Source: Erythrobacter sp. (GTDB lineage Bacteria; Pseudomonadota; Alphaproteobacteria; Sphingomonadales; Sphingomonadaceae). Taken from it: a stretch of DNA of 64,000 nt. Where the stretch lies: contig JASBTD010000053.1 in assembly GCA_030148605.1 (NCBI GenBank), forward strand, positions 1 through 64,000, in the 5' to 3' direction. The notes under the pieces were generated by a model that did not search any database, was not told the DNA's origin, and saw only the letters and a list, made by a program, of their open reading frames with translations. The translations under genes and the position numbers were made by a program. Shown here one piece after another: positions 428-18,017 of this stretch; the first letter of the stretch is position 1; the number at the start of each line of letters is the position of its first letter.

Positions 428-961
428 CTAAATGAGTTTGCGGATCAATTCGCTGCCGTCCCAGCCTTGCGCGGCGTCACGCACCATGGCGTAAAACCCG
501 GTAAGCTGCTCAGTCGGCTCGTAAAGCTCGAGCATGTGGCCCAGCGTCGCGGTTGCATCAACAAAGGCATAGCGCGTGTCGGTACTGGTTTCGGATAGCT
601 GGGCCAGCGGCATGTCTTGCGCCGCAAATTGCGCAATTGCTGCATCCAGATCATCCACCCATAGTGCCATATGGTGCAGGCCTTGCTGGCCGCTGCCAGC
701 GGGAAACATGTCATGGAATGCGCTGGGGTGATCTCCGTGTTGCGTGACGAACTCGATCATTACTTCGCCCCATTGGCCATAGGCGCTGGAATGATCATGC
801 GTAACGCGCACGCCGCGATGCTCGCTCCAATTGAGTGGCACGTGCTGCCAGACGAAGAAGGGGCCCGAGCCGAATGTGGCGTGATGCGCGCGCGCTGCGG
901 CCTCGATATCAGGCACAAACCACGCGATCTGCCGCACCGGAAGGCCGCCGGGCGATGTCAT
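428..961 (-). CDS. VOC-superfamily (glyoxalase/bleomycin-resistance fold) protein
   Basis: The 177-residue protein has two paired beta-alpha-beta-beta-beta modules, one starting at VRQIAWFVPDIEAAARA and one at GLHHMALWVDDLDAAIA. The second module keeps the His of the GLHHMAL strand and the Glu of HMLELYEP, both usual metal ligands. In the first module the position usually occupied by His in the I-x-H-x-x-x-x-V strand is Gln (RQIAWFV), so metal binding may be altered. The length and two-module layout recall methylmalonyl-CoA epimerase relatives and extradiol-dioxygenase-like proteins, but no substrate can be named. The ATG at 961 overlaps the stop of the upstream acyl-CoA synthetase by one base (TGATG), which shows translational coupling and favours this start over a TTG one codon earlier. 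Confidence 0.8.
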   Translation of the reverse strand: MTSPGGLPVRQIAWFVPDIEAAARAHHATFGSGPFFVWQHVPLNWSEHRGVRVTHDHSSAYGQWGEVMIEFVTQHGDHPSAFHDMFPAGSGQQGLHHMALWVDDLDAAIAQFAAQDMPLAQLSETSTDTRYAFVDATATLGHMLELYEPTEQLTGFYAMVRDAAQGWDGSELIRKLI

Positions 962-2547
962 CAATTGACTGCCCTATCCTTCCCTTCCCAATAGGGCGCG
1001 CGCAAATCCTTGCGCAGGATCTTGCCGCTGGGATTGCGTGGCAAAGCATCGATGAAGTCGACTGACTTGGGGCATTTGTATCCGGCGATGTGGTCGCGGG
1101 AATGCGCGATCACTTCGGCTTCGGACAGCTCTTCGCCTTCCTTCACCACAACGCAGGCCTTCACCGCTTCGCCCCATTTCTGGTCAGGCACGCCGATCAC
1201 CGCGACGTCGGCGACCTTGGGGTGAGCGTAGATCGCGTTCTCGACTTCAGCCGGATAGACATTCTCACCGCCGGAGATGATCATGTCCTTCACCCGGTCC
1301 TGAATGTAGAGATAGCCATCTTCGTCGAGATATCCGGCATCGCCGGTGCGCAGCCATCCTTCGGCATCGATTGTCTCCGCCGTCGCTTCGGGCCTGTTCC
1401 AGTAACCCTTCATGTTCTTGGGGCTGCGAGTGGCGATCTCGCCGATCGTGCCCGCCGGGACCTCGTTGCCATCCTCGTCGATGATCTTGATTTCGACATC
1501 TTTCAGCGGCGTGCCGACCGAACGCATCTTGCGGCTGCCTTCAGGCACGTGATCCTCTGGATCAAGCGTTACGATGGTGCCGGAGGTTTCCGTCATCCCG
1601 TACATCTGCACAAAGCCGCAACCGAGCACGTCCATGGCCTGTTTCATCAGCTCGAGCGGGATCGGCGATGCGCCATAAGTGATGTATTTGAGGTTGGAAA
1701 AATCAACTTCGTGCACGCGTGGATGGTTGAGCAGGATCTGGATTGCCGCGGGCACCATGAAGATCTTCGAGATATTGTAATTCTCGATCAGGTCGAGCGC
1801 CTGTGTCGGATCGTACTCAGGCAGCACGATCGCTTTCGACCCGTTGAAGATCGTGCCCAGCCCGTAGCCCGTGCCGCTGATATGGAAACACGGCATGGCG
1901 AGCAGCGCGACTTCGCCCTCAATCGTTTTCTGCCAGTCCATCAGCTCGTCTTCATTCACATCATTCATGCGCGAGGAGAAGATCGAACCATGGGTCAGGA
2001 TCGCGCCTTTGGGATGGCCGGTCGTGCCGGAGGTGTAGAGCTGGATCGCGTCATCTTCGACCGCGCAGGGTGCCATCGGGTCGCTATCGCCAAATGTGTC
2101 GCGCCATTCGGGATAGCTTTGAAATTCGCCTTCTTGGCCCTCTGAACCGAAGATCTTCACGACGTGATCCAGATTGCGCTGGATGTCGCCGACCAGCTCG
2201 GCGAAGCCCGGCCCCACGAACAGCACCTTGGCCTGGCAGTCATTGACAACATAGGTCACTTCCGGCCGTGCGAGCCGCCAGTTGACCGGCGTCATCACCG
2301 CGCCCAGCTTGGCCGCGCCTGCGAGGATCTCGAAATAGAGATGCGAATTCTTGCCCAGGTAAGCGATCCGGTCACCCTTGCTGACGCCAAGCGAGGCCAG
2401 CGCATTGGCGGCCATGTTGCTGCGCCGGTCAAGCTCGTCGAATGTCAGCTCATCGCCGCCGAATTCAAACGCGACTTCGCCTTTGCGCTCGCGCCCCTGG
2501 TGGCGGACAATATCACCAATGGTTTGCGGATCGTCGATCGTCGACAT
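961..2547 (-). CDS. long-chain fatty acid--CoA ligase / AMP-dependent acyl-CoA synthetase
   Basis: This 528-residue protein carries the complete adenylate-forming signature: P-loop YTSGTTGHPKG (171-181), YGMTETSG (316-323), the ATP-binding GWLRTGD (397-403), the hinge RVKDMIISGGENVYPAEVE (418-436) and the catalytic lysine motif PRNPSGKIL with K509. It activates a carboxylic acid to the acyl-AMP and then the CoA thioester in the cytoplasm. The substrate cannot be read from sequence. It lies next to a thioesterase, a crotonase-fold protein and Rieske oxygenases, which suggests an acid derived from the substrate of this catabolic region rather than general lipid metabolism. It is the first gene of a minus-strand unit with the VOC gene and the truncated SnoaL gene, and is divergent from the thioesterase at 2657. 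Confidence 0.92.
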   Translation of the reverse strand: MSTIDDPQTIGDIVRHQGRERKGEVAFEFGGDELTFDELDRRSNMAANALASLGVSKGDRIAYLGKNSHLYFEILAGAAKLGAVMTPVNWRLARPEVTYVVNDCQAKVLFVGPGFAELVGDIQRNLDHVVKIFGSEGQEGEFQSYPEWRDTFGDSDPMAPCAVEDDAIQLYTSGTTGHPKGAILTHGSIFSSRMNDVNEDELMDWQKTIEGEVALLAMPCFHISGTGYGLGTIFNGSKAIVLPEYDPTQALDLIENYNISKIFMVPAAIQILLNHPRVHEVDFSNLKYITYGASPIPLELMKQAMDVLGCGFVQMYGMTETSGTIVTLDPEDHVPEGSRKMRSVGTPLKDVEIKIIDEDGNEVPAGTIGEIATRSPKNMKGYWNRPEATAETIDAEGWLRTGDAGYLDEDGYLYIQDRVKDMIISGGENVYPAEVENAIYAHPKVADVAVIGVPDQKWGEAVKACVVVKEGEELSEAEVIAHSRDHIAGYKCPKSVDFIDALPRNPSGKILRKDLRAPYWEGKDRAVN

Positions 2548-2656
2548 GCCTTGCCTCTCGCCTGTTGTGTGGGTCCGGGTTTAGGCGGCGTGTTGCCCGC
2601 GGCCATTGGCACAATTCATAGCGGCGCTTGAGCGCAGCTGCGCTAGGGTCGCTCGC

Positions 2657-3085
2657 ATGAGCGATGCAAACCCGCCCGAAGGCTTTGAACCCGCCGGATT
2701 CTCGCCCGGCTTCCTTGACCATGGCGGGCCATACTTTCTGCGCGTCAATGCGCAGGGGCCGCGCACGGTGGGCCTCAGGATCATGCCGCATCACATCAAT
2801 TATCAGGATGTGGCGCATGGCGGCGTGCTGACGACGCTGGCCGATGTCGCGTTGAGCCATGCGGTTTTTGATGCTGAACGCCCACACCCAGGTGTTGCGA
2901 CGATTTCGCTGACAACCAATTTCCTTAGCGGCGCGAGGCTCAAGGACTGGCTTGAATGTGAAGTCAGAATTGACCGCATGGGCGGCCGCACCGCCTATAC
3001 CAGCGGGCAGATACTGCGGAATGGCGACGCAATCGCGACTATGAGCGGCGTCTTCGCGGTAAAACGCAAGGAGGATACGAAATGA
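2657..3085 (+). CDS. PaaI-type hotdog-fold thioesterase
   Basis: The protein is 142 residues long from the ATG at 2657. The hotdog core is visible as MPHHINYQDVAHGGVLTTLAD, with the conserved N-x-x-D/H-x-x-H-G-G-x-x-x-x-L-A-D pattern of the PaaI/YiiD group, where the Asp or Asn region and the HGG turn line the thioester pocket. Members hydrolyse acyl- or phenylacyl-CoA thioesters. The frame is open upstream to 2606, but the Met at 2657 gives the standard length. The gene ends with a four-base ATGA overlap with the enoyl-CoA hydratase-like gene, so the two are probably translated together, and it would recycle CoA or release stalled intermediates of this pathway. Confidence 0.85.
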   Translation: MSDANPPEGFEPAGFSPGFLDHGGPYFLRVNAQGPRTVGLRIMPHHINYQDVAHGGVLTTLADVALSHAVFDAERPHPGVATISLTTNFLSGARLKDWLECEVRIDRMGGRTAYTSGQILRNGDAIATMSGVFAVKRKEDTK

Positions 3086-3882
3086 GCGATGAATTGCTGG
3101 TCGAAAGCCGCGGGCAAATCGAGATAGTCACGCTCAACCGGCCCGAGAAGCTCAACACCATGAACGCTTCGCTGATTGCGGCGCTCGATGCATACTTTCG
3201 CGGGCTGCAGGAGCGGCTTGATATCCGCATTGTGGTGCTGCGCGGGGCAGGCCGTGCGTTTTGTGCCGGGCTTGACCTGAGCCCCGGTTCGTGGCCCGTC
3301 GATCCGGGCGAAGGCGGCGTGCAGGCTGGCTGGAAGACACAACGCGCGATCGCCACAGTGATGCAATTGATGCGGCAATGCCCGCAACCGGTGATAGCGC
3401 TGGGGCAGGGTGCGGCTTGCGGCGGCGGTTTTTCGCTGCTGCTGTCCAGCGATGTGCGGATTGCCGCGCCGAGCCTCAAGATGAATGCGGCCTATATCAA
3501 GATCGGGCTTGGCGGCTGCGATATGGGTTCAAGCTATTTCCTGCCGCGGCTGGTGGGCGCATCAGTGGCGGCGGAATATATCCTCACCGGCAAGTTCATG
3601 CTTGCCGACAAAGCGCTGGCCTGCGGATTGGTGAGCGAAGTTGTGGAAGAGGAGACGTTGCTCGATACCGCGCTTGCGTTGGCGGAAGAGATGCTGGCGA
3701 CTTCGCCGATGGGGCTCAGGCTCACCAAGGATGCGCTGAACAGGAACATTGACGCACCCAGTTTCGAAGCTGCGCTGGCAATCGAAGACCGTCAGCAAGT
3801 GCTGCTCGCACAGACCGAGGATTTCGGGGAAGCCAAACGCGCCTTCGCCGAGAAACGCGCGCCCGACTACAAGGATCGCTGA
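3082..3882 (+). CDS. enoyl-CoA hydratase/isomerase family (crotonase-fold) protein
   Basis: The 266-residue protein has the crotonase signatures GRAFCAGLDLS, the oxyanion-hole segment GQGAACGGGFSLLLSSDVRIA and the helix AAEYILTGKFMLADKALACGLV. The second catalytic glutamate of enoyl-CoA hydratases (Glu164 in rat crotonase) aligns with the Glu of AAEYILTG. The first (Glu144, normally in F-G-x-P-E-x-x-x-G) aligns with Tyr in AAYIKIGL. By family rules this makes plain hydratase activity doubtful and an isomerase or other crotonase reaction possible; the reaction is therefore unassigned. It is coupled to the upstream thioesterase by ATGA and preceded by a strong AAGGAGG site. It abuts a convergent gene with no spacer. 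Confidence 0.87.
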   Translation: MSDELLVESRGQIEIVTLNRPEKLNTMNASLIAALDAYFRGLQERLDIRIVVLRGAGRAFCAGLDLSPGSWPVDPGEGGVQAGWKTQRAIATVMQLMRQCPQPVIALGQGAACGGGFSLLLSSDVRIAAPSLKMNAAYIKIGLGGCDMGSSYFLPRLVGASVAAEYILTGKFMLADKALACGLVSEVVEEETLLDTALALAEEMLATSPMGLRLTKDALNRNIDAPSFEAALAIEDRQQVLLAQTEDFGEAKRAFAEKRAPDYKDR

Positions 3883-4422
3883 TCAGCCGCGCCAGCGTGC
3901 AACCACCGGTGTCGATGGATCGCGATCATCGTGATAGCCGCAGGACCCCTCTGGCAGGCCGACAAGTTCCACCCCTTCCACTTCGCGGAATTCGCGCCAG
4001 TCATAGAAGCCTTCGCGATGCATGATGCGCCACTCGCCACCACGCTTTTCGAAACGGTCAACATAGCGCCCGGCAATCACCGCTGAGTAGACCTTGCCCT
4101 TGTCCGGAAAGACATCCGGAACAGGATAGCCCGCGGGGATAGTGTGCATCGCAGTCATGTAGGTTTCGGTGTGACACAGGTCATCGCCAGCGAAACCAAA
4201 CTGGACCTGCCCCAGCTGGTGCTGCGTCGCGAGGCAGGGATCGATGATAGCTTTGGCGCCAACAACGAAGTCCTGCCAGCCTCCCCCCACTGTGCCGAAA
4301 CCGAAGGTTGCGTCAGGATGGAAAAGATTCTCCATCATATCCCACCGGCGCCGGTCCACAGCATGGGCATAGGCAGCGATCACATCACGGATGGCTTCGC
4401 GGTCTTCCAGGCGTATGCTCAT
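3883..4422 (-). CDS. SnoaL-like / NTF2-fold protein
   Basis: This 179-residue protein starts with REAIRDVIAAYAHAVDRRRWD and MENLFHPDATFGFG, which is the helix and first strand of SnoaL_4-type NTF2-fold domains. The rest gives the curved sheet including ETYMTAMHTIPAG, GRYVDRFEKRGGEWRI and a closing MHREGFYDWRE. Relatives near Rieske oxygenases act as dehydratases, isomerases or small hydroxylase subunits. The fold is that of a ring-hydroxylating dioxygenase beta subunit, so pairing with one of the oxygenase alpha subunits nearby is a possibility but not shown. Its start overlaps the stop of the oxidoreductase upstream by four bases (4419-4422), so the two form one unit. Confidence 0.8.
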   Translation of the reverse strand: MSIRLEDREAIRDVIAAYAHAVDRRRWDMMENLFHPDATFGFGTVGGGWQDFVVGAKAIIDPCLATQHQLGQVQFGFAGDDLCHTETYMTAMHTIPAGYPVPDVFPDKGKVYSAVIAGRYVDRFEKRGGEWRIMHREGFYDWREFREVEGVELVGLPEGSCGYHDDRDPSTPVVARWRG

Positions 4423-5420
4423 TGTTCCAGCTCCACGATAACCTTGCCGATATTGGCACCGGTGAACAGCTTGGCATAGGCTTGCAAGGTGTTCTCCAAC
4501 CCCCTGGTCACATCATAAGGCATGGCCAGCGCCTTGCTGTCGACCCATTGCTTGAGTTGCGCGGTCAATCGCTCCCCCTGATCCATGAAATCAGGCGAAA
4601 AGAAACCTTCGATCCGCAGCCGCCGCATCAGCACCTGGTCGAAATTCGCCGGACTGGTGCGCGTGCCGCTGGAATAATCGGAGACCAACCCGCACACCGC
4701 GACACGGCCATAGTGGTTCATCCGGGTGAGGACTTCATCCAGCATCGGACCGCCGGTATTGTCGAAATAGACATCGATCCCGCCAATACCATCCATCTGC
4801 GCGCTGACATCCGCGGTCTTGTAATCCACCGCACCATCGATCCCGATGACATCGGTAAGGAAGCGGCATTTCTCCTTGCCGCCGGCAATGCCCCAGGCCT
4901 TGCAGCCGAGCAATCCGGCGATCTGAACTGCCAGAATGCCGGTGGCACCGGCCGCGGCAGATACGACAACGGTTTCACCTTCTTTCGCTGCACCGGTCTG
5001 TTCGATACCCCACAGCGCAGTCCAGCCATTCATGCCCAGCGGGCCGAACCATGCGCGCTTGTCCTTGACGGACGGATCGAGCTTGACTGCACCCGCCCAA
5101 ACCGGATCGACCAGGCTGTAATCAGCCCATTGGCCGAATGCGCGCACCAGCGTGCCGTCCGGAAAATCAGGATGCCGCGACGCAGCAACTTCGCCGATAA
5201 CCAGCCCTGTCATGGGCGTACCGGTTTCCAGCGGCGGCTGGTAGCCATCGGTGCGATCGGTCAGCCACATGCGCGTGCCGGCATCCATTGACAGCATGGC
5301 GTTGCGGATCACGATCTCGCCGTCGCCGGGATCGGGAAGAGGCGCTTCGACAAGCGTCAAGGCTTCGCTAAATTCGGTGCCCTCAGGGCGCGCATCAATG
5401 CGCCAGAAACGGTTTGTCAT
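4419..5420 (-). CDS. NADP-dependent medium-chain dehydrogenase/reductase
   Basis: From the ATG at 5420 the protein has 333 residues. It contains a GroES-like N-terminal domain with SMDAGTRMWL, then the Rossmann entry VVVSAAAGATGILAVQIAGLLG and GIDVYFDNTGG. This is the zinc-independent CurA/YncB/leukotriene B4 12-hydroxydehydrogenase branch, with none of the zinc-ligand Cys clusters of alcohol dehydrogenases. Such enzymes reduce the C=C bond of enones or acyl compounds with NADPH. The frame is open 48 codons further upstream, but that extension lacks domain similarity and would run into the promoter of the divergent NmrA-like gene. It is co-transcribed with the SnoaL-like gene that overlaps its 3' end. 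Confidence 0.88.
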   Translation of the reverse strand: MTNRFWRIDARPEGTEFSEALTLVEAPLPDPGDGEIVIRNAMLSMDAGTRMWLTDRTDGYQPPLETGTPMTGLVIGEVAASRHPDFPDGTLVRAFGQWADYSLVDPVWAGAVKLDPSVKDKRAWFGPLGMNGWTALWGIEQTGAAKEGETVVVSAAAGATGILAVQIAGLLGCKAWGIAGGKEKCRFLTDVIGIDGAVDYKTADVSAQMDGIGGIDVYFDNTGGPMLDEVLTRMNHYGRVAVCGLVSDYSSGTRTSPANFDQVLMRRLRIEGFFSPDFMDQGERLTAQLKQWVDSKALAMPYDVTRGLENTLQAYAKLFTGANIGKVIVELEQ

Positions 5421-5477
5421 GATAGCCTTGTCAGTCGGGTGAGACGCTACGGCAACGGATGCTTTTGCTAGTATTCC

Positions 5478-5491
5478 TGATAGGGCTATCA
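5478..5491. promoter_or_regulatory. palindrome TGATAGggCTATCA between divergent genes
   Basis: A perfect 6-base inverted repeat with a two-base spacer lies 57 bases before the oxidoreductase start (5420) and 66 bases before the NmrA-like start (5558). Its position in a 137-base divergent promoter region makes it a candidate operator serving both units. No regulator is encoded nearby. Chance occurrence of such a short palindrome is not excluded. Confidence 0.35.
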
Positions 5492-5557
5492 CTTTGGCGT
5501 GGTGCGTGCCCGCGGTGCAATTCCTAGTCTCCCGGCAAAAGATAGGGAGAGTGACAA

Positions 5558-6505
5558 ATGGCATTGATCACGGTTATCGGCGCATCAGGTCGGCAAGGCA
5601 TGGCGCAGGTGAAACAGGCGCTCGCGGCAGGCTATGATGTGCGGGCAATTTCGCGCCAGCCAGAGCCCTTTGCAGGCGCGAAGATCGACGGTATCGACCG
5701 GGTCGAGGTTCGCCCGATGGACCTTTATGATCCTGCGTCGTATCGCGCTGCGCTCGAAGGCAGCGATTACATCTTCTACACTCACCCGCTCCAAGCGCGC
5801 GCTGACCGCGCGGTGCTGGTCGGCGATGTTGGAAAGGCGGCAGCTGAGCTGGGCGTAAAGCGCGTGGTGTGGAACACCTCGAGCTGGATTCCGGACAAGC
5901 CGGGCGACGCTTTCACCTATGCCGGCAACACGGCGGGCATCAATGCGCTGTGGCGTTCGGGCGCACCGGGCACGGTGTTCGGCTCGGTTCTGTTTATGGA
6001 CAATCTGCTGACCAATTGGGCGCGCCCCTTCATCGTCAACGAAGGTCGCTATGTCTATCCGCATGCGCCGCATCTGGAAGCGAACTGGATCAGCCTGGAT
6101 GACGTGGCGAAGTTCATGCTCGCCTCGCTCGAACGGCCTGACATGGAAGGCGCTTGGCTCAATATCGGCGGGCCCAAGCGGATGCGCGGGCCGGAAGTGG
6201 CTCAAGTGCTGACTGACACACTTGGCAAGCCGGTGAAATACGATCCCTGCACGCCGCAGGAGTTTGGCGATTATCTCGTGCGTGCTGCAGGTGACAGCAT
6301 GCCAGAAGAAGTGCGGACGGAATTTGCAGCCGGGATTGCCGCCTTCTACGAATACAACAACACCGCGCCGACCAAACCCTTCGCGGTGGATATGGACCAT
6401 GTCTACGAGCGTTTCCCTGAGTTGGAGGGCAAGCTGGAAGATATGGCTGAATGGGCACCCAAGCAGGATTGGGGCGAAAGCAATTTCCGCCCCGCCTTTG
6501 GCTAG
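5558..6505 (+). CDS. NmrA-like NAD(P)-binding protein
   Basis: The 315-residue protein opens with a Rossmann fold, ITVIGASGRQGMAQVKQALAAG, where G-A-S-G-R-Q-G is the variant glycine motif of NmrA-like atypical SDRs. It lacks a Y-x-x-x-K catalytic pair in the usual place. NmrA-like members are either redox sensors or reductases for quinones and aromatic intermediates, so both roles stay open. It is preceded by a good AGGGAGAG ribosome-binding site. The SDR gene follows after 12 bases on the same strand, so these two probably form an operon divergent from the medium-chain oxidoreductase. Confidence 0.83.
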   Translation: MALITVIGASGRQGMAQVKQALAAGYDVRAISRQPEPFAGAKIDGIDRVEVRPMDLYDPASYRAALEGSDYIFYTHPLQARADRAVLVGDVGKAAAELGVKRVVWNTSSWIPDKPGDAFTYAGNTAGINALWRSGAPGTVFGSVLFMDNLLTNWARPFIVNEGRYVYPHAPHLEANWISLDDVAKFMLASLERPDMEGAWLNIGGPKRMRGPEVAQVLTDTLGKPVKYDPCTPQEFGDYLVRAAGDSMPEEVRTEFAAGIAAFYEYNNTAPTKPFAVDMDHVYERFPELEGKLEDMAEWAPKQDWGESNFRPAFG

Positions 6506-6517
6506 GCGGGCACAGCG

Positions 6518-7285
6518 GTGAGGCGTTTAGAAGGCAAGGTGGCGCTGGTCACCGGCGGGGCCTCGCGTCCAGGCATCGGTTTTGCGATAGCAAAGCGTCT
6601 TGCAGAGGAAGGCGCGCAAGTCATCCTGACCGATGTCGATACGTCAGGGGTCGAGGAAAGCGCGGCCATGATCCGCGAGATGAATCTTTCCGCGACGGCT
6701 ATGCGGCAGGATGTCTCCTTGCAGGCGGACTGGGATCAGGTGATCGAACGCATCCTGACAGACTTTGGCCGGATCGATATTCTGGTCAACAATGCAGGCA
6801 TTCTCGACGTTGGCGAGATTGATTCAGACGGTGCGGTCGCTGGTTTGAAGCGTCAATTGAGTGTGAATGTCGAAGGCGTCTTCATGGGCACGCAAGCCGC
6901 CGTGAAAGCAATGCGCGCAGCATCTCAAGGCGGCTCGATCGTCAATATCTCTTCGGTTGCGGGCAAGGTTGGGTTCAGAGGCAGCGCTTCCTATGCTGCT
7001 ACCAAGGGCGCAGTGAAGCTGATGACCAAATCGGTCGCCTTGGAGACTGCAGCTGAGGGCATTCGCGTCAATTCAGTCCACCCTGGCATCATCCGAACCA
7101 ACATGGCCGCCGAGGGGCTGGAAGAGAACGCAGATAATTACGCTGCTATCGAGGCAGTCATCCCGATGGGCCGGCTGGGCGAACCGGAAGATATCGCCAA
7201 TTGCGTGCTCTTCCTTGCCTCGGACGAAGCCGGTTATGTCACAGGTGCGGAATTCGTTGTCGACGGTGGCTATATCGCGCAATAG
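6518..7285 (+). CDS. short-chain dehydrogenase/reductase (SDR)
   Basis: The 255-residue protein starts at a GTG (6518) with MRRLEGKVALVTGG. It has the classical SDR features: cofactor glycine motif TGGASRPGIG (with the two-residue R-P variant in place of the usual single residue), D-V after strand 3, NNAG, Ser of NISSVAG, YAATK active-site pair and the C-terminal GAEFVVDGGY. It should interconvert a secondary alcohol and ketone using NAD(P). It follows the NmrA-like gene by 12 bases and would handle an alcohol made by the Rieske oxygenases or hydratase-like enzymes. The substrate is unknown. Confidence 0.9.
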   Translation: MRRLEGKVALVTGGASRPGIGFAIAKRLAEEGAQVILTDVDTSGVEESAAMIREMNLSATAMRQDVSLQADWDQVIERILTDFGRIDILVNNAGILDVGEIDSDGAVAGLKRQLSVNVEGVFMGTQAAVKAMRAASQGGSIVNISSVAGKVGFRGSASYAATKGAVKLMTKSVALETAAEGIRVNSVHPGIIRTNMAAEGLEENADNYAAIEAVIPMGRLGEPEDIANCVLFLASDEAGYVTGAEFVVDGGYIAQ

Positions 7286-7300: not shown

Positions 7301-8530
7301 TTACTCCGCTGCTTGCCTTTGTTCCGCAGCGAAGATTGCCAGCAAGTCCTCATCGCTCGCGTCAGCCAGCTTTTCCACCCATTGGTGGAAGACTTGTCCG
7401 CCGCGTTCGTTCTTGCCGAACAGCACCTCTTTCAGTAGCCCTGACTGCAGTGCTTCATGCTGGCGCTTGCCAGTTTTGTAGTCTTCGTCGCGCACGACGA
7501 TCTCGAGGAAGTCAAACTGCTCATGCGCTGACTTTACGTCAGCCTCAGTCTCAGGCTTGTTTTCCATCACATAGAACTGCGTGGTGTAGCTTTCGCCCAC
7601 ACTCTTGCCGGGGAACAGCTGGCTGATCATCGCGCCGCGCTGACCGCCGCCGTAGAAGCTGGCGATCGAGATATGCGGGAAGATCGTCCAAACGCCCTGG
7701 ACCAGCACTTCCTGCGGGATTTCGTCATCCGCAAGCGCTTCAAGATCGAGCTGCTGGTCGTCTTCGCCCGATACCTTGATCGCGAATTTCGACGGGGTAG
7801 ACAGGCGCTGGTGCGGGCCGAATGCGAAATAGTTGGCGCGGTTATAGAAATCCGCGCCAAAGGTGTTCGCATGCAGTACCGGCAAATGGTAGAAATCGAG
7901 ATAGCCGTCGTAGGCTGTCTTCCAGTTCGGCCCGGGCAAGGTGCGCTGGCTGAAAAGCGTCCAGCCGTCGAATTCGAAGGCTTTCAAAAGCTCGTCATAG
8001 CCGCACAGGTAATCGGCAATATCGAGCTTTGAATCGGGATCCAGCGTCGCCCAGATCAAACCGGCGTTCTCGTAAACCGGAAAGCGGGTCAGGCAAAATT
8101 CGGCCTTGTCGATCGCACCGAAATCCTGCGGGCTGGCGACACCCACCAGCTGGCCGTCGTTCTTGTAGGTCCAACCGTGATAGCCGCACATCAGGCGTGT
8201 CGCATTGCCGGTGCCTTCAGCCAGCGGATTGCCGCGGTGCTTGCACATGTTGAGGAAAGCCCCGACTGTCCCATCTTTCTTGCGGGTGAGCAGCAGCGGC
8301 ACACCGCAGATGTCCATCGCTTTGTAATCGCCGGGATTGGGGATCTCGCAACTGGGCGCGACCATCAATGGCAAGCGGCGGAAAATCTGCTGCTTCTCGC
8401 GCTCGAACAGCGCTTCGTCGGTATAGGCCGAGGCAGGCACGCGTACCACTTCATCGGCATATTCCATCGTATCGGCTGCGCCATGCGCCACCAGATTGCG
8501 GGTCATTTCGATCAATTGTTCGCGTGACAC
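7301..8530 (-). CDS. Rieske [2Fe-2S] ring-hydroxylating oxygenase, alpha subunit (first copy)
   Basis: The 409-residue protein has an N-terminal Rieske domain with CKH (C96, H98) and CGYH (C115, H118) as cluster ligands, and a catalytic domain whose non-heme iron site is marked by D-F-Y-H-x-x-x-x-H (H215, H220). It would insert one or two oxygen atoms into a ring or methyl group, taking electrons from a reductase and ferredoxin that are not encoded in this window. The start is a GTG at 8530, preceded by GGAGGG at a good distance. It lies convergent to the SDR (15 bases between stops) and downstream of the TonB-dependent receptor on the same strand, but a terminator separates the two. Confidence 0.92.
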   Translation of the reverse strand: MSREQLIEMTRNLVAHGAADTMEYADEVVRVPASAYTDEALFEREKQQIFRRLPLMVAPSCEIPNPGDYKAMDICGVPLLLTRKKDGTVGAFLNMCKHRGNPLAEGTGNATRLMCGYHGWTYKNDGQLVGVASPQDFGAIDKAEFCLTRFPVYENAGLIWATLDPDSKLDIADYLCGYDELLKAFEFDGWTLFSQRTLPGPNWKTAYDGYLDFYHLPVLHANTFGADFYNRANYFAFGPHQRLSTPSKFAIKVSGEDDQQLDLEALADDEIPQEVLVQGVWTIFPHISIASFYGGGQRGAMISQLFPGKSVGESYTTQFYVMENKPETEADVKSAHEQFDFLEIVVRDEDYKTGKRQHEALQSGLLKEVLFGKNERGGQVFHQWVEKLADASDEDLLAIFAAEQRQAAE

Positions 8531-11260: not shown

Positions 11261-11282
11261 TGTCGCTCTCTCCCTAGTCAGC

Positions 11283-11300
11283 CGGATGTTCCAACATCCG
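11283..11300. promoter_or_regulatory. palindrome CGGATGTTccAACATCCG before the receptor gene
   Basis: An 18-base perfect inverted repeat, two 8-base arms around CC, lies 23 bases upstream of the receptor start codon, between the promoter region and the ribosome-binding site AGGGAGAGAG. It could be an operator or a 5' UTR hairpin that protects or represses the mRNA. The receptor is the gene most likely to need substrate induction in this region. The call rests on symmetry and position only. Confidence 0.5.
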
Positions 11301-11449
11301 TGCCTTTCGCCCCTTGGCCCGACGGATTCATTCTAACTCGCCGGAATTATCTGAAATTCTATGGCGCACCCCTGAGCGAGGCACTTGGCAAAAGGGATAG
11401 GCAAAAATTGCCAGTGCGGCATTCATGCCACACGCCCTGCGCCGTAGCG

Positions 11450-12763
11450 TCATTCCGCTGCTTCGCGCGCGCCGCCTTGCTCGCGCTGCATCTGCGCAAT
11501 GCGCGGATCATTGGGCCAGGTCCACTCCTCACCGATCACTTGCTTGACCCGCAAGTGCTCCGGCACGTTTTCGATCCCGATCATCTTGTCGCAGGTCTGG
11601 TGGAAGCTGTAGATGCGCGCTTCCTGATAGCTCAGCGGCACGCTCTTGAAGCCCTGGCTTTGCATCGAGTGCTGGATCGCTTCGCCGAACTGCGTGTCTT
11701 CTTTGATCAGGTCAGCCATGTCGCGGCCATTCGGCTTGCTATCGTCCGGCACCGTCCAAAGATCCGGTGCGGGCCCATCTCCCCAATCGAGCGCAAAGGT
11801 GACAAGTTCGAGCCGCGTGGTGTTGAGCGATGTTGGCCAGAATACCAATGGCGGGATGAAATAGTTCGAGACTGGCGAAACCCAGTTAGGGAATACGAAA
11901 TAGCTTTGCGTGGCTGTGCGGCCCAACTCGCCAACCGTATCGATTGTTTGCCATTCAGGCGGATGCTCGATCGCGCGCACACTTTCGCGATTGAAATCGC
12001 GCGGGGCGGGCGCCAGCATGCGGCCGTGCCCGCCGGGATAGATGGTGTTCACATTGCGCTTGGCATCAACCAGCGGCGCGACGGTTTCAGGATGAATGAA
12101 AGGGACATGATAGACTTCCATGTTGGCTTCCATCGCCACCTTCCAGTTGCACTTGAGATCGAAGCTGTGCCGCGCGGCAAGCTTGATCCGGTCGAAAGCA
12201 AACTCTTCCCATTCGTCCGCAATCGGCCCCAGCCATTCGCGCAGTGCAGGTGCCCCGTCATCGAAATTCACGAAGATGACATTGCCCAGCATTTCGCAGC
12301 GCACCGGGATCAGCCCGCGGCAGCTCATGTCGAAATCGGCCGGGAAATCCTGCCGCTCCGGAACGCCAACCAAGGTGCCATCGGTCTTGTAGGTCCAGTG
12401 ATGGTATCCGCACATCAGGCGCGAAGACTTGCCGAAATCTTCGGTAACGACAGGCGCACCGCGGTGGCGGCAGGTGTTGTAGAAGGCGCGCACCACCCCA
12501 TCCATGCCGTGCACGACAATGATCGGATCACCCGCATTGTGCCAACGCATGTAGCAGCCGGGCTCTGGGATCTCGTCAATATGGCCTGCAAACAGCCAGC
12601 TCTTGCGGAAGATGTGTTCTTGCTCGAGCGCGTAATATTCCTCGCTGGTATAGCGCGCGGCGGGCATATCCGGCAGCTTCGGAAACCCTTCCGGCGGGCC
12701 GCGGCGCTGCCCCTCCCATTCCATCAGGGCCTTGAGCTGATCGACTTCATCCTGGCTGAACAT
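11450..12763 (-). CDS. Rieske [2Fe-2S] ring-hydroxylating oxygenase, alpha subunit (second copy)
   Basis: The 437-residue protein has Rieske ligands in CRH (C98, H100) and CGYHH (C118, H121), and a catalytic iron site in N-M-E-V-Y-H-x-x-x-x-H-P (H219, H224). This E-x-Y-H form is the standard one of aromatic-ring dioxygenase alpha subunits and of O-demethylase relatives, and differs from the D-F-Y-H form of the copy at 7301-8530, so the two are distinct enzymes rather than a recent duplication. No beta subunit is adjacent. The Met at 12763 fits the usual N-terminus and is preceded by GAGGAGTG. It has its own promoter space because 189 bases separate its stop from the receptor start and the MITE-like element lies upstream. 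Confidence 0.92.
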   Translation of the reverse strand: MFSQDEVDQLKALMEWEGQRRGPPEGFPKLPDMPAARYTSEEYYALEQEHIFRKSWLFAGHIDEIPEPGCYMRWHNAGDPIIVVHGMDGVVRAFYNTCRHRGAPVVTEDFGKSSRLMCGYHHWTYKTDGTLVGVPERQDFPADFDMSCRGLIPVRCEMLGNVIFVNFDDGAPALREWLGPIADEWEEFAFDRIKLAARHSFDLKCNWKVAMEANMEVYHVPFIHPETVAPLVDAKRNVNTIYPGGHGRMLAPAPRDFNRESVRAIEHPPEWQTIDTVGELGRTATQSYFVFPNWVSPVSNYFIPPLVFWPTSLNTTRLELVTFALDWGDGPAPDLWTVPDDSKPNGRDMADLIKEDTQFGEAIQHSMQSQGFKSVPLSYQEARIYSFHQTCDKMIGIENVPEHLRVKQVIGEEWTWPNDPRIAQMQREQGGAREAAE

Positions 12764-12834
12764 TCCTACACTCCTCAGCGTTGCAGACTAGCGGGCCAAG
12801 CAAACAAGGCGACTGACACTTTGACGCAAAACTA

Positions 12835-13138: not shown

Positions 13139-13213
13139 TAAGCGCTTCTGACAGTGGTGCGCGCAATTGCCGCCGATAGTCTGCGCGCCAGAAAACACAT
13201 TGGGGAGAGAAGG

Positions 13214-13981
13214 ATGGCTGGCAGAGTCGAGGGTAAGATTGCCCTGGTCACAGGCGGCGCAATGGGGCTGGGCAAGGCCGATTGCCTGCGCCTGGCCGAA
13301 GAGGGCGCGCATGTGATCGTGACAGATCGGGAGATCGATCTGGCACATGAGGTTGCGCATGAAATCCAAGGTGACGCGTTCGAACTTGATGTAACCGATC
13401 CTGAGCAGTGGCAGCACGTGATCGATGCGGTGGAAGAGCGCCACGGCGGCCTCGATATCCTTGTCAACAATGCCGGCAATGTGATCTTCGAAAGTATCGA
13501 GGAATGCTCGCTGGAGCATTTCCGCCTGCACATGGCGATCCATGTCGAAGGCACATTCCTTGGCTGCAAGACAGCCTTGCCGCTGATGAAGAATCGCCCG
13601 GGAGCAGGCGCTTCGATCATCAATATGGCTTCGACCGCGGCCTTGATGGGGTATGGCAATATCCCGGCCTATACCGCTGCCAAAGGCGCGATCCGTGCCA
13701 TGACCCGGTCGATTGCGATCGATTGCCAGGACAAGGGCTATGGCATTCGCTGCAATGCCATTGCACCGGGCGGAATTGAAACGCCGATGGTGCGCGATGT
13801 GTCAGGCCGTGCGGGCGAAGAGCTGATGGATATTCCGGACGGCCCGCTGCCGATGGATGCGCTGGGTGCGCCGAGAGACGTGGCCAATGCCATGCTCTAT
13901 CTCGCGAGCGACGATTCTCGCTTCATAAATGGCATCGTGCTGCCGGTGGATAATGGCCTCGATGCCCGACCTCACCACTGA
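13214..13981 (+). CDS. short-chain dehydrogenase/reductase (SDR)
   Basis: This 255-residue classical SDR shows TGGAMGLG for cofactor binding, ELDVTDP, NNAGNVIFE, the catalytic Ser in NMASTAALM, the YTAAK pair and an IAPGGIETPM segment before the C-terminal VLPVDNG. It is expected to oxidise a hydroxyl on a ring or side chain with NAD(P). The Met at 13214 is preceded by GGGGAGAGAAGG at good spacing; the frame is open 20 codons upstream but without domain similarity. The gene overlaps the MFS transporter start by 20 bases, so the pair forms an operon that may be driven from the edge of the MITE-like element. Confidence 0.9.
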   Translation: MAGRVEGKIALVTGGAMGLGKADCLRLAEEGAHVIVTDREIDLAHEVAHEIQGDAFELDVTDPEQWQHVIDAVEERHGGLDILVNNAGNVIFESIEECSLEHFRLHMAIHVEGTFLGCKTALPLMKNRPGAGASIINMASTAALMGYGNIPAYTAAKGAIRAMTRSIAIDCQDKGYGIRCNAIAPGGIETPMVRDVSGRAGEELMDIPDGPLPMDALGAPRDVANAMLYLASDDSRFINGIVLPVDNGLDARPHH

Positions 13982-15272
13982 CGGGCAGCACCCGCAAGCA
14001 GACAACCCCGGTAAATATCGCTGGTATGTCCTGTCGCTGCTGATCCTCACGCTGCTGTTCAGCGTGGCGGACCGGCTGGTGTTCTCGATCCTGCTAGAGG
14101 ATATCAAGGCTGAGTTTGACTTCAGCGACACGCAATTGGGCCTGCTCGGAGGAGTCGCCTTTACCGCGACCTATGTGATCATCGGCTTTCCCGCTGCGCG
14201 GCTGGCGGATCGTTCGGTGCGCAAGAATATCGTTGCCGGCGCGATCAGCTTCTGGAGCTTCATGACCGCATTATGCGGCATGGCGGTGGGTTTCTGGACC
14301 TTGTTCTTCGCCCGCACCGGAGTGGGCGTGGGTGAAGGCTGCTCTGGCCCCGCCTCGCAATCGATGCTGGCTGATTACTTCCCGCGCAAGGAGCTAGCCC
14401 GCGCGATGGGATTCCTGACTCTGGGCTCGACGCTTGGCACAGTCACCGGGCTGATGGCCGGTGGCCTGCTGGCGGAGCATTTTGGCTGGCGCAATGCCTT
14501 TATCCTGATGGCGATACCCGGCTTTATCATCGGCGGATTTCTCTATTTCACCGTGCGCGAGCCGCAGCGCGGACGCTACGCGCCCAAGGGCGCGCGGGTC
14601 GAGCAATTGCCCTTGGGCGAAACGGTCCGCACGCTTCTGGCGAACAAGGTATTCCTTGGCTTGGCATTCGGTTGGGCGGTGCAAATCATGATCGGATACG
14701 GCATGGCCTTCTGGCTCGCTCCGGCGATGATCCGCCTGTTCGAGATATCGGTGGGCGATGTCGCGCTTTATCTTGGGCTGGCCTTCCTGATTGGCGGCAT
14801 TCCCGGGCCGATACTGGGCGGTGTAATCACCGATTGGCTTGTCAAACGCGATGAACGCTGGCGCGCTTGGCTTCCCGGCATTGTCAGCCTGGGCGCGATC
14901 CTGCCGCTTTGGATCGCGTTTGAAAGCGGCAGCTTCGCACTCTTCCTTGGCCTCTTCGCCTTTGCATACGGGATCTATGTTGCAAGTCAGGCACCCATCA
15001 TGTCCGGCATCCAGGCAGCAGTTGAACCTTCGCAGCGCGGCTTTGCTGTCGCCTTCGCGCTGTTCTTCAACAATCTGATCGGGCAGGCATTCGGGCTGGG
15101 CGTGATCGGCTGGCTTAGCGACACGCTGGAGCCGACGCGCGGCAATGCGGCACTGGGCGATGCGGTATTGTTTGTCAGTCTTGCAGCGGGTGTGGTGGCG
15201 CTGGCGATCTTCGCATGGACCGCGCGGCAGATGCGTGTGACCGGTTATCTTGAGCGGATCGCGAATTCCTAG
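13962..15272 (+). CDS. MFS transporter
   Basis: The 436-residue protein has about twelve hydrophobic helices with an N-terminal half starting at YRWYVLSLLILTLLFSVADR. The loop between helices 2 and 3 carries the family signature in the form GFPAARLADRSVRKN, close to the MFS motif A G-x-x-x-D-R-x-x-R-R/K. The ADR segment in helix 1 is typical of spinster-like and aromatic-acid MFS members found in sphingomonad catabolic clusters. It probably takes up or exports a small organic compound across the inner membrane, complementing the outer-membrane receptor at 8693-11260. The ATG at 13962 overlaps the SDR gene. Confidence 0.88.
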   Translation: MPDLTTDGQHPQADNPGKYRWYVLSLLILTLLFSVADRLVFSILLEDIKAEFDFSDTQLGLLGGVAFTATYVIIGFPAARLADRSVRKNIVAGAISFWSFMTALCGMAVGFWTLFFARTGVGVGEGCSGPASQSMLADYFPRKELARAMGFLTLGSTLGTVTGLMAGGLLAEHFGWRNAFILMAIPGFIIGGFLYFTVREPQRGRYAPKGARVEQLPLGETVRTLLANKVFLGLAFGWAVQIMIGYGMAFWLAPAMIRLFEISVGDVALYLGLAFLIGGIPGPILGGVITDWLVKRDERWRAWLPGIVSLGAILPLWIAFESGSFALFLGLFAFAYGIYVASQAPIMSGIQAAVEPSQRGFAVAFALFFNNLIGQAFGLGVIGWLSDTLEPTRGNAALGDAVLFVSLAAGVVALAIFAWTARQMRVTGYLERIANS

Positions 15273-15281
15273 AAATCGGGC

Positions 15282-16061
15282 CTAAAATCCGGGGTGAATG
15301 CTTAGCGCTCCACCATCCACCAGCATGTCTGCGCCGGTCATGAAAGGGCATTCATCGCTGGCCAGGAAGGCAATCGCGGCTGCGGTTTCCGCCGGATCCG
15401 CGAGCCGGTTCATGGGAGAGGTTGCGGCTACCGCCGCTTTGAACCCTGGCAATTCCTTTTCCGTCGCATCGAGAATGCCCGTTTCCGTTGCGCCGGGGAT
15501 CACCGCATTGCAGCGGATCGCATGGCCCTGCTTGGCGCACCATGTCGCGACCGACTTGGTCAGCGCCCGCACCCCGGCCTTGCTGGCGGAGTAGCCGACA
15601 TCTGTGGGGAGCGGTGTAATCGCGGTAGTCGAAGCGATATTGATGATAGAGCCCGATGCACCGCCGGGATTATCAACCATCGCTGATATAGCTGCGCGGC
15701 AGCCCGCCATGGTCCCGGTCAAATTGACCGCGATCACATGGTCCCATGCAGCGAACATTTCCTCGTCTGAACCCTCGCCAATGCTGGCACCTGACACCAG
15801 GCCGGCATTGTTGACCAGAATATCGAGCCGCCCGAACGTGTCGATTGCGTGAGTGACCACTTCGCTCCAACGCGAACGATCAGACACATCCTGTTGCAGG
15901 AATTCTGCGCCAATTTCGCGGCACAGTTCCTGCCCCGCTTCGGCGTTGATATCGGTCCCCAATACCTGCGCGTCATCAGCGACCAGCCGCCGCACCGCAG
16001 CCGCACCAATCCCGCTGGCGCAGCCGGTGACGATGGCGACCTTTCCTGACAGGTCTGGCAC
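15282..16061 (-). CDS. short-chain dehydrogenase/reductase (SDR)
   Basis: From a GTG at 16061 the protein has 259 residues and begins MPDLSGKVAIVTG. It shows the SDR cofactor motif TGCASGIG, NNAGLVSGAS, the catalytic Ser in NIASTTAIT, a GYSASK pair and a C-terminal GADMLVDGGALSIHPGF tail. The GTG overlaps the last base of the upstream GST stop codon (TAGTG), which decides this start over the ATG ten codons further up. The protein acts as an NAD(P)-dependent alcohol dehydrogenase or ketoreductase of unknown substrate. It is the third SDR in this region and is distinct from the other two in sequence. Confidence 0.9.
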   Translation of the reverse strand: MPDLSGKVAIVTGCASGIGAAAVRRLVADDAQVLGTDINAEAGQELCREIGAEFLQQDVSDRSRWSEVVTHAIDTFGRLDILVNNAGLVSGASIGEGSDEEMFAAWDHVIAVNLTGTMAGCRAAISAMVDNPGGASGSIINIASTTAITPLPTDVGYSASKAGVRALTKSVATWCAKQGHAIRCNAVIPGATETGILDATEKELPGFKAAVAATSPMNRLADPAETAAAIAFLASDECPFMTGADMLVDGGALSIHPGF

Positions 16062-16708
16062 TATTCCGCCTGTTGCCAGATGCCTGCGCATTCCCGGCTG
16101 TTATGCGTTTCGACAAACCGCGCGAGATTGTCTGTCCCTTCGGGCAGTTTCCAGCCGATGGTGAAGCCGAAATGGGCGAAGGCGAACATCAGCAGATCCG
16201 CGAATGTGAACCGGCCCAGCGCCAGATGGTTGCTGCTGCCCAGCTTTTGATCGAACCAGCGCCATTTGGCATCGGACATGGCGGTAAGTTCTAAGCCAGC
16301 GCTTTCGCTGACGACAGCCATGCGCGGCTCAAACATCGGGCGCCCGCTGGTGGCGCGGAAACCCATCGTCATCGGTACTACCACTTCCTGGTCAAACAGC
16401 CGCGCCCATTTGCGCACTTCGGCCCGCTCCAGCGCAGTTTCGCCAAACATATTGGGCGCAGGATGCTCTTCTTCGATGAATTCGCAGATCGGCCAGCTTT
16501 CGGTCAGGCAAGTGCCGTCATCCAGTTCCAGCACTGGCAGAGTTTGCAGCTCGTTCTTTCCGGTCAGGCTGTCGCTCTGGCGGTTCTCGCCCGCGATGAT
16601 GTCATAGTGAACCCGGTCGAAGTCTGCGCCTTCCTTCAGGCCTTTCTCGACCAGGAACATGCGCACCAGGCGCGGATTGGGGCCGAGGCTTGAGTGAAGC
16701 TTTGTCAT
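16061..16708 (-). CDS. glutathione S-transferase family protein
   Basis: The 215-residue protein has an N-terminal thioredoxin-like domain with TLPVLELDDGTCLTESWPIC, whose cis-proline (LPVL) and glutathione-contacting E-S pair are standard for bacterial GSTs, followed by an all-helical domain from about residue 90. In the first helix the segment SSLGPNPRLVRMFLVEKG has Ser and Asn-Pro in the place of the catalytic Ser/Cys region. Bacterial GSTs in catabolic clusters open epoxides, remove halides or cleave ether bonds, or isomerise ring-cleavage products. Its stop overlaps the SDR start, so the two are coupled. Confidence 0.87.
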   Translation of the reverse strand: MTKLHSSLGPNPRLVRMFLVEKGLKEGADFDRVHYDIIAGENRQSDSLTGKNELQTLPVLELDDGTCLTESWPICEFIEEEHPAPNMFGETALERAEVRKWARLFDQEVVVPMTMGFRATSGRPMFEPRMAVVSESAGLELTAMSDAKWRWFDQKLGSSNHLALGRFTFADLLMFAFAHFGFTIGWKLPEGTDNLARFVETHNSRECAGIWQQAE

Positions 16709-16717
16709 GCGAATTCT

Positions 16718-16813
16718 CCTAGCGCATCTGTGTTTGAAGCGACCCTATGCGAGAGTGCGTTTCAGGCAACCCTCACAAATGCGCTAGGCAAATGGGGGCC
16801 GAGATGCGCTAGG
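16718..16813. promoter_or_regulatory. three copies of ATGCGCTAGG in a divergent promoter region
   Basis: The 139 bases between the GST gene and the acyl-CoA dehydrogenase gene contain CCTAGCGCATCT (16718-16729, inverted), AATGCGCTAGG (16778-16788) and AGATGCGCTAGG (16802-16813). The first and third are perfect reverse complements over 12 bases. This arrangement suggests a regulator or sigma-factor site used in both directions. A caution is that GCGCTAGGG-like strings also occur just upstream of other genes in the window (near 2641 and 48772), so the unit may be a promoter element rather than an operator. Confidence 0.5.
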
Positions 16814-16847
16814 GGTATTCGAAAGCAAATACAGCAGGACCTACGCC

Positions 16848-18017
16848 ATGGATTTCCGCCTCACTGATGAACAACGCGAATTGCAGGATGCCGCGCGCAA
16901 ATTTGCCCGCGCCGAATTGCCAGAGCTGGCGCGCGACATGGAAGAGAAGGACTACTCTGTCCCCGCAGACATGCTGCGCAAATATGGCGAGCTGGGGTTT
17001 CTCGGGGTTAACCTGCCGACCGAATATGGCGGGCTGGGGCTGGGCCATGTCGAGGCGTTGTTGGTGCTGGAGGAATTCGCGCAGATCTCGAACGCGGTGG
17101 CTTTTCCGGTGTTCGAAGCGCTGGTTGGCCCGGTGCGCACGATCGAGCGCTTCGGCTCCGACGAGATGAAAGCGCGCATCCTGCCGGAAGTGATCAAAGG
17201 CGAGAGAATCGTCGCGGTCTCGATGTCGGAACCTGATGCGGGAACCGCGCTGACAGACTTGAAGACCCGCGCCGTTGCAGATGGCGATGACTATGTCGTC
17301 AATGGCTACAAGCGCTGGACATCGGGCGGTGGCCATTCGGACTATTATGTTACCTATTGCCGCTACAATGATGAGCCGGGTGCCAAGGGCATCGGTGCGA
17401 TCCTGCTCGAACGCGATGCGCCGGGTATGCAGTTCGGCAAGCGCGAGCAGTTGATGGGTTTTCGCGGGATCGACACTGCCGATTTCGCAATCGAGGATGT
17501 GCGTGTGCCCAAGGAGAATGTGATCGTGGGCGCAGGCGGTTTCGGCAAGCTCATGAGCGCGTTCGGGCTCGAGCGCTGCGGCAATGCCACGCAAAGCCTG
17601 GGGGTTGCCGCCGCCGCGCTGGAACAAGCAACGCAATATGTGCAAGAGCGGCAGGCCTTCGGCAAACCCATCGTCGAATTCCAGGCAGTGCAATTGAAGC
17701 TCGCGGAAATGGCGATGAAGGTTGAGGCTTCGCGGTTGCTGATCCACCGCGCTGCCGCCAATGCCGCGCATCAGGCGGATGGCTTGCCCACGGTTTACGA
17801 AAGCTCGGTCGCCAAATGTTACGCCAATGAAATCGTGCGCGAAGTGACCGCGATGGGCCTGCAAGTGATGGGCGGCTATGGCTATCACAAGGATTACGGG
17901 ATGGAGCAACGCGTGCGCGACGGTTTCGCCTGGGGTATCGCAGGCGGCACCACCGATGTGCAAAAGACCAATATCGCTGCAGCATTGATCGGGCGAAGGT
18001 TTGATCAGCGACGGTAA
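16848..18017 (+). CDS. acyl-CoA dehydrogenase
   Basis: The 389-residue protein has the three-domain acyl-CoA dehydrogenase layout: N-terminal helices (DFRLTDEQRELQDAARKFA), the FAD-binding middle sheet (AVSMSEPDAGTALTDLKTRA, RWTSGGGHSDYYV) and C-terminal helices with the LGVAAAALEQATQYVQERQAFGKP stretch, here split as LGVAAAALEQA and RQAFGKPI. Glu in YGYHKDYGMEQRVRD is positioned as the catalytic base. It forms a trans-2-enoyl-CoA and passes electrons to ETF. It is divergent from the GST-SDR unit and is the right-hand end of the catabolic region, consistent with beta-oxidation of the CoA ester produced by the ligase at 961-2547. Confidence 0.91.
   Translation: MDFRLTDEQRELQDAARKFARAELPELARDMEEKDYSVPADMLRKYGELGFLGVNLPTEYGGLGLGHVEALLVLEEFAQISNAVAFPVFEALVGPVRTIERFGSDEMKARILPEVIKGERIVAVSMSEPDAGTALTDLKTRAVADGDDYVVNGYKRWTSGGGHSDYYVTYCRYNDEPGAKGIGAILLERDAPGMQFGKREQLMGFRGIDTADFAIEDVRVPKENVIVGAGGFGKLMSAFGLERCGNATQSLGVAAAALEQATQYVQERQAFGKPIVEFQAVQLKLAEMAMKVEASRLLIHRAAANAAHQADGLPTVYESSVAKCYANEIVREVTAMGLQVMGGYGYHKDYGMEQRVRDGFAWGIAGGTTDVQKTNIAAALIGRRFDQRR

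Follow-up and report, generated by a model that had tools for sequence, protein, structure and literature searches.

We analyzed a 64,000-nucleotide stretch of DNA (the window) from an Erythrobacter sp. genome (assembly GCA_030148605.1, contig JASBTD010000053.1), designated here G000:C51:1-64000, where base 1 is the first base of contig C51. The G000 assembly consists of 66 contigs and is rated 97.8% complete. Positions 428 to 18017 hold a cluster of genes, numbered g01 to g16, that includes two Rieske oxygenase alpha subunits (A and B) and a TonB-dependent receptor. Sequence comparison with relatives indicates that this cluster is the right-hand third of a conserved, collinear island of ~50 kb. 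On balance, we think that the island serves to break down a polycyclic isoprenoid, a steroid- or terpenoid-like compound, and that the window cluster is its right-hand module. The original prediction, made from the window alone, had proposed a candidate undescribed catabolic cluster that acts on a cyclic hydrophobic compound. This fits our results, in which the cluster is also conserved in relatives, and we found no published account of the island in the open-access literature, which was the scope of the search (subscription papers and preprints lay outside it). The prediction that the cluster was a near-complete set for the pathway did not hold: its 17.6 kb amount to roughly one third of the island, the remainder of which encodes P450s, a KstD-like protein, an Ltp/ChsH2-type pair, a third Rieske protein, and a regulator. 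The statement that no regulator was present is correct for the window piece and wrong for the intact island, which has a LuxR-type gene.

The full island was observed in G642, a genome of the same genus (single contig, 99% complete). There, the window cluster runs on leftwards uninterrupted from G642_018 to G642_067, ~50 kb, and the island is bounded by PH-domain genes, as in the window, and by a flank that in G000 adjoins L182_002 on contig C32. A collinear island with both flanks shared was found in G642, G199 (Altererythrobacter sp. XM-24bin4), G204 (Erythrobacter dokdonensis DSW-74), and G180; G612 has the same right flank, and its left side lies outside the fetched DNA. The overall order is the same in G199 and G204, with small differences, and both are without g04 and g08. 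An outer pair of acyl-CoA dehydrogenase (ACAD) genes was present only in G642, G199, G096, and, on another contig, G000; G204 is without it. We found close island variants in G180 and G018, the island as two loci in G033, and rearranged versions in G054, G096, and G127.

Protein families were assigned through Pfam and NCBIfam scans of a subset of island genes, and some names come from BLAST similarity to the scanned ones. In one or another genome, the left part of the island encodes ACADs, 2-oxoacid dehydrogenase-type E1 alpha and beta subunits, SnoaL/LEH proteins, another NmrA protein, the third Rieske protein (Rieske C), a second VOC protein, the LuxR-type regulator, another CoA ligase, a pair of ThuA proteins, two P450s (three in some genomes), and two more medium-chain dehydrogenase/reductase (MDR) proteins. 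It also encodes a molybdopterin oxidoreductase, an ABM protein, several short-chain dehydrogenases (SDRs), a KstD-like flavoprotein, and a thiolase-like protein of the lipid-transfer (Ltp) kind paired with an OB_ChsH2_C protein. Extras are an open reading frame (ORF) with a TetR-C domain in G642 and, in G199, a cytochrome c. The best solved relatives of one of the P450s (L151:5909-7147) include CYP125, CYP142, and CYP124. The best solved relative of the KstD-like protein is a 3-oxosteroid 1-dehydrogenase; in NCBIfam, the KstD-like protein scores below the cut-offs. SCP2 thiolases are the best relatives of the thiolase-like protein, and a lipid-transfer protein stands lower in the list. Separately, a ~88-base element between two G199 island genes (L151:15814-15904) matches contigs C8, C16, and C22 of G000 on both strands; this element is a palindrome-like interspersed repeat.

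We asked how widely the gene order of the window cluster is kept. A locus scan with Rieske A over one-genome-per-species contigs confirmed 239 relatives, and locus counts were taken from the best 80. Among these, 49 loci are ~21 kb with full flanks, and g07 and g10 are both in 36 of the 49. We then used the 37 of the best 80 that carry g02, g07, g10, and g14; these four are present by selection, and loci that end early depress the counts of edge genes. In this set, g05, g09, g12, g13, and g15 occur in 37/37 loci, g06 in 36, g03 and g17 in 34 each, g11 in 33, g01 in 29, g18 in 20, g16 in 15, g08 in 6, and g04 in 1. The g04 gene was also found in G642 (91%), G096 (83%), and G033 (79%). When the absences of g04 and g08 were rechecked at L061 and L063, they were real, and g08 was matched there by SDR paralogues at 36 to 40% only. 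The ratio of nonsynonymous to synonymous change (dN/dS) for g01 to g16 against G642 and G199 was 0.01 to 0.12 where computable, at dS values of ~0.8 to 1.9, where synonymous sites are near saturation; for the TonB receptor it was not computable against G199. As judged from these sequences, the kept order in 37 loci and the low dN/dS show that the cluster is more than chance. A comparison of gene order in relatives had been proposed with the original prediction, and its outcome, an order conserved in Erythrobacteraceae at 37 loci, is clearly the opposite of an order kept nowhere. Within the cluster, the segment that holds the TonB receptor and Rieske B (8693-12763) is 70% and 81% identical to G642, versus 87 to 95% for g09 and g12 to g15, which suggests fast change or replacement of this segment.

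The locus records are mostly from Erythrobacter, Porphyrobacter, and Altererythrobacter, with one Parerythrobacter and some metagenome-assembled genomes (MAGs). At the Novosphingobium and Parasphingorhabdus loci that we inspected, Rieske A was the sole window gene to pass the filter. Of 199 family genomes, 14 have Rieske A orthologues (at least 65%) and 11 have Rieske B orthologues (at least 70%). All 11 genomes with Rieske B are inside the 14 with Rieske A, where 0.77 would be expected (P ~1e-15, ignoring relatedness). G030, G113, and G082 have Rieske A without Rieske B. The two orthologues are on separate contigs in G153 and more than 100 kb apart in G089, where one of two B copies has a paralogue of A (46%) nearby. 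In a sample of the genus, Rieske A (E<=1e-150) was present in 44/61 genomes, in one of them (G612) in two reading frames. In a sample of the class, Rieske B (E<=1e-120) was present in 9/385 genomes, namely G000 and eight of other families at 49 to 62% identity. Rieske C was found at 78% or more in 19 of 22 genomes with Rieske A (the 22 chosen from the 80 loci), and the remaining three are two Novosphingobium (61%) and a Parasphingorhabdus (37%). Among plasmid records, 0/18 and 0/10 matching records reached 60% identity. A recent plasmid-borne pollutant pathway was rejected, since plasmid records hold only relatives below this identity.

In the genome of the window itself, the island breaks off on the left. 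Bases 1 to 255 are the left breakpoint and the contig end, and homology to the island begins at base 256. These bases (1..255, + strand) comprise the 3' end of an integrase-core (rve) transposase gene and an insertion-sequence terminus (Pfam rve_3 at 3-179), and they also open contig C18 at 99% identity (G000:C18:1-255). Because the same 255 bases start C51 and C18, a repeated insertion-sequence element breaks the G000 assembly. Next to it, at ~256..427 on the - strand, lies what the insertion has left of a SnoaL_2 (NTF2-fold) gene, its 5' part. By tblastx this remnant matches G199_056 at ~80% over 59 codons, and intact orthologues of the cut gene are SnoaL_2. An ORF at 79-435 (+) was rejected as a gene, as it crosses from the transposase end into the antisense strand of the SnoaL remnant. 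We searched G000 with G199 DNA from the left part (40/106 and 40/131 first-look candidates scored) and found the left flank on C32, the outer ACAD pair on C39, and the window's own edge. Further matches were a 289-base cytochrome c match on C34 and otherwise stretches of 566 bases or less. Most left-part genes were not found in the G000 assembly. Orthologues of Rieske C and the molybdopterin oxidoreductase were not found there, and neither was the DNA of the KstD-like protein (a DNA search with a subset of candidates scored). On C32, beside the left flank, GC content falls from ~60% to ~50%, and ~8 kb of lower-GC DNA (L182:1-8000) with one called gene, an AAA ATPase-like ORF, stands where relatives have the left end of the island.

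Deletion of the left part is the simplest reading, and a missing contig is possible. A comparable state was observed in G058, which has the right part only: g05 to g07, g09 to g15, and g03, the last read as 98 residues by the gene caller. Rieske C and the molybdopterin oxidoreductase are without orthologues in G058, and a ParB-type gene lies ~6 kb to the left of its right part. G116, a MAG of ~360 contigs, is also without these two orthologues. The states of G058 and of the window suggest that the island is open to erosion from its left side. The cluster may be a stranded remnant in the organism of the window, with the original substrate no longer supporting growth, an explanation that is compatible with isoprenoid catabolism by the intact island and to which we give somewhat less than an even chance. 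The insertion sequence inside the SnoaL gene, the absence of most left-part genes from the assembly, the low-GC DNA at the left flank, and the right part alone in G058 all speak for it. However, the kept genes are open and their dN/dS is low, although synonymous sites are near saturation and a loss that happened recently would not show. The break also coincides with a contig end in an assembly 97.8% complete, so the sequence may be missing from the assembly only.

The two Rieske proteins of the window are dissimilar, as originally predicted, with 35% identity over 223 residues and a poor alignment beyond. Rieske A (g09, 7301..8530, -) and Rieske B (g11, 11450..12763, -) each have the Pfam domains Rieske and Ring_hydroxyl_A. 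The motif of Rieske A is C96 H98 C115 H118 with metal-site residues H215 and H220, and that of Rieske B is C98 H100 C118 H121 with H219 and H224; each of these residues is invariant in 24/24 rows of the respective alignment. With the [2Fe-2S] motif C-X-H ... C-X2-H and two His present, both proteins are, by sequence, Rieske non-heme iron oxygenase alpha subunits. The third (carboxylate) metal ligand was placed by position only. At the bridging position, Rieske A has Asp212, whereas Rieske B has Glu216. E216 is present in 24/24 rows and is aligned with the CntA residue preceding C-Y-H; residues 216-220 of Rieske B read E-V-Y-H-V, of which V220 is invariant and V217 nearly so. In CntA, the bridging Glu is E205, according to the accessible part of the report (PMC7948474), and some group V Rieske monooxygenases are described, again in the accessible part of the source, as having a Cys-X-X-Cys beside the iron (PMC10952381). 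Rieske B is thus like CntA and stachydrine demethylase (group V) in its bridging Glu, and CntA is its top sequence match and among its top fold matches. Rieske B differs from those group V members in that its alignment has no Cys-X-X-Cys, and Rieske A differs in its Asp at the bridging position. A few observations concern other loci. In Novosphingobium fuchskuhlense, a 911-residue ORF beside Rieske A (L099:7121-9856) includes a Rieske oxygenase-like part and is a possible fusion. In G612, a single contig, Rieske A is split into two overlapping frames (L196 8046-9276) and an ACAD is read as a 209-residue piece (L195 3370-3999); these are either real decay or sequence errors.

From the gene content, we infer both a substrate class and a set of reactions. 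The relatives of the P450, KstD-like, and thiolase-like proteins, together with content like that of the edc oestrogen cluster, suggest by analogy that the substrate is an isoprenoid with a branched side chain. The edc cluster of the sphingomonad Caenibius (Novosphingobium) tardaugens, as laid out in the accessible part of its description, contains P450, chsH2-like, and lipid-transfer genes, an ACAD gene, and a TonB receptor gene, the loss of which slows growth on oestradiol (PMC7793797). We compared edc and the island by gene content as described and not by protein sequence; on this basis they share a sphingomonad host, a P450, a chsH2-like and a lipid-transfer protein, an ACAD, a VOC protein, a TonB receptor, and a 2-oxoacid-processing enzyme, which is EdcC in edc and of the E1 alpha/beta type in the island (PMC7793797). 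However, edc has the 4,5-dioxygenase EdcB (PMC7793797), for which no counterpart was recognized among the scanned island genes. The island in turn has ThuA proteins, a KstD-like enzyme, a molybdopterin oxidoreductase, and three Rieske oxygenases, which set it apart from edc as far as that description goes. The bile-salt clusters of Sphingobium sp. Chol11 and C. tardaugens, in the portions of the reports available, share with the island a CoA ligase, an ACAD pair, SDRs, and TonB receptors, but there the nucleus is cleaved by KshAB through the 9,10-seco route (PMC8399759, PMC12882949). In Chol11, a Sal2/Ltp2 homologue is reported absent in the part of the account available (PMC8399759), in contrast to the Ltp-type protein in the island.

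We searched for two markers of the 9,10-seco route. KshA_C (PF19298) was searched in 17 genomes including G000, a set outside which G642, G199, G204, and G612 lie. It was detected at E<=0.001 in 4/17 and was over the cut-off in G116, in G033, and marginally in G030. None was found in G000 or in the island genomes G180, G054, G096, G018, and G127, so that five of the six island genomes tested are without it; the sixth, G033, has KshA_C over the cut-off twice. The proxy for a type-I extradiol dioxygenase was BphC_D1 (PF22632), which we take to mark the BphC/HsaC/OecC kind, and 10 genomes were searched. Three had a match: G199 and G000 (C50) have one each over the cut-off, outside the island, and G127 has one below it. 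No match was found in seven of nine island genomes (G642, G180, G612, G018, G054, G096, and G204). The standard 9,10-seco steroid route is unlikely on these sequence searches because five of six island genomes are without KshA and seven of nine without a match to the BphC_D1 proxy. A classical 9,10-seco cluster was therefore rejected, with G033 (KshA) and G199 and G000 (BphC_D1) as exceptions.

How do these results weigh for the substrate? A standard steroid cluster (9,10-seco, with androgens, sterols, or bile acids as substrates) or an oestrogen cluster of the edc type would account for the KstD-like, CYP125/142-like, Ltp/ChsH2-like, and paired ACAD genes, several of which edc has, and for the KshA_C and BphC_D1 matches in the exceptions just named. 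We consider it unlikely, given the missing markers in most island genomes and the scanned island genes, in which no ring-cleavage dioxygenase was recognized. An aromatic or monocyclic substrate (a plant phenolic dimer, an alkylcyclohexane, or a pollutant) attacked by Rieske oxygenation appears quite improbable. Sphingomonad aromatic pathways often include Rieske alpha subunits, glutathione S-transferases (GSTs), VOC proteins, and TonB receptors, and the top NCBIfam match of the KstD-like protein, below the cut-off, is 4-oxocyclohexanecarboxylate 2-dehydrogenase, which would fit a monocyclic substrate. However, no beta subunit and no catechol or other ring-cleavage dioxygenase was recognized in the scanned subset of island genes, and no ferredoxin or reductase in this subset or in the window piece (Pfam/NCBIfam); moreover, the cluster is widespread on chromosomes and its plasmid relatives are all below 60% identity, unlike a recent pollutant pathway. 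That the island makes or modifies a compound, as in carotenoid or terpenoid tailoring, is very improbable. NmrA, SnoaL, ABM, and P450 families occur in biosynthesis too, but no backbone synthase or cyclase was recognized in the scanned genes, and the TonB receptor, CoA ligases, ACADs, and thiolase-like gene indicate uptake and beta-oxidation.

We thus retain catabolism of a polycyclic isoprenoid as our reading. Besides the KstD-like match just given, several points count against it: KshA and a BphC_D1 match are absent from most genomes tested; the fold of Rieske B is nearest to CntA, salicylate 5-hydroxylase, and terephthalate dioxygenase (tied), none of which is a steroid enzyme; P450, SDR, and MDR families are promiscuous; and the copy in the window may have lost the capacity for the complete pathway. 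A more specific possibility, held tentatively, is that the intact island encodes an aerobic route not yet described for breaking down such a compound, for instance a triterpenoid, an apocarotenoid, or a sterol of algal origin. The route would employ three Rieske oxygenases of the alpha-only type, a KstD-like step, and two or more P450s, would involve neither KshA nor an extradiol ring-cleavage dioxygenase of the classical type, and would be a common Erythrobacteraceae trait.

The genes of the window cluster can be placed in such a pathway. Where a simple codon-usage gene caller differed from the longest ORF, its start was used; starts are approximate, and genes below 80 codons are missed. The TonB-dependent receptor g10 (8693..11260, -; Pfam Plug and barrel) would bring the hydrophobic compound across the outer membrane, and the major facilitator superfamily (MFS) transporter g13 (13953..15272, +; MFS_1) would move the compound or an acidic intermediate across the inner membrane. 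The alpha-only Rieske A and B may add hydroxyl groups to the ring system, with electrons drawn from a putative shared reductase, a likely partner whose gene would lie elsewhere. Alcohols and ketones would be handled by the NmrA-like atypical SDR g07 (5558..6505, +; NmrA 9.6e-22) and by three SDRs with adh_short_C2 domains: the facultative g08 (6518..7285, +), g12 (13214..13981, +; start by the gene caller, with a longer ORF from 13154), and g14 (15282..16091, -). The MDR ene-reductase-like g06 (4419..5420, -; ADH_N_2, with an ORF that extends to 5564) may reduce enones; against NF058644 (curcumin reductase) it scores 266 bits, under the cut-off of 440. The SnoaL_4 NTF2-fold protein g05 (3883..4422, -; 7.8e-25) and the VOC/glyoxalase-fold protein g01 (428..964, -; Glyoxalase_4 7.1e-13) are candidates for isomerizing or hydrolyzing intermediates. 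The acyl-CoA ligase g02 of the PRK06187 type (961..2547, -; AMP-binding; NF004837 at 621 bits, cut-off 476) would activate a carboxyl group so that steps of the beta-oxidation type can follow. In intact islands, the P450s, KstD-like protein, ACADs, and Ltp-type thiolase with its ChsH2-type OB protein of the left part would oxidize and remove side-chain or ring fragments.

The remaining genes of the cluster are the hotdog-fold thioesterase g03 (2657..3085, +; 4HBT; start by the gene caller, with a longer ORF from 2606), the facultative enoyl-CoA hydratase/isomerase (crotonase) g04 (3082..3882, +; ECH_1), the GST-like g15 (16061..16708, -; GST_N_3 and GST_C), which is the right end of the conserved island, and the acyl-CoA dehydrogenase g16 (16848..18017, +; Acyl-CoA_dh domains), a facultative neighbor. 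Pfam and NCBIfam bear out the MFS, three SDR, MDR, GST, CoA ligase, thioesterase, crotonase, and ACAD assignments of the original prediction, as they do the TonB receptor. Of the two NTF2-fold proteins it listed, only g05 lies in 428-18017, and the second is the cut remnant outside; g07 and g01 were absent from its list. The right flank begins with two PH-domain genes (18058..20195, +; bPH_2), and flank genes that we take, on our own reading of their sequences, to be gpmA, purE, purK, folA, ribF, and ileS were also noted. The sole RNA gene of the window is tRNA-Gly(TCC) at 35206-35279 (ARAGORN; Rfam at gathering thresholds).

The island is a ~50-kb catabolic trait, with Rieske A in most genomes of the genus sample and no substrate assigned in the open-access papers searched, and this raises the question of which compound feeds these bacteria. 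Because Erythrobacter dokdonensis DSW-74 has the island, the question can be put to a cultured strain.

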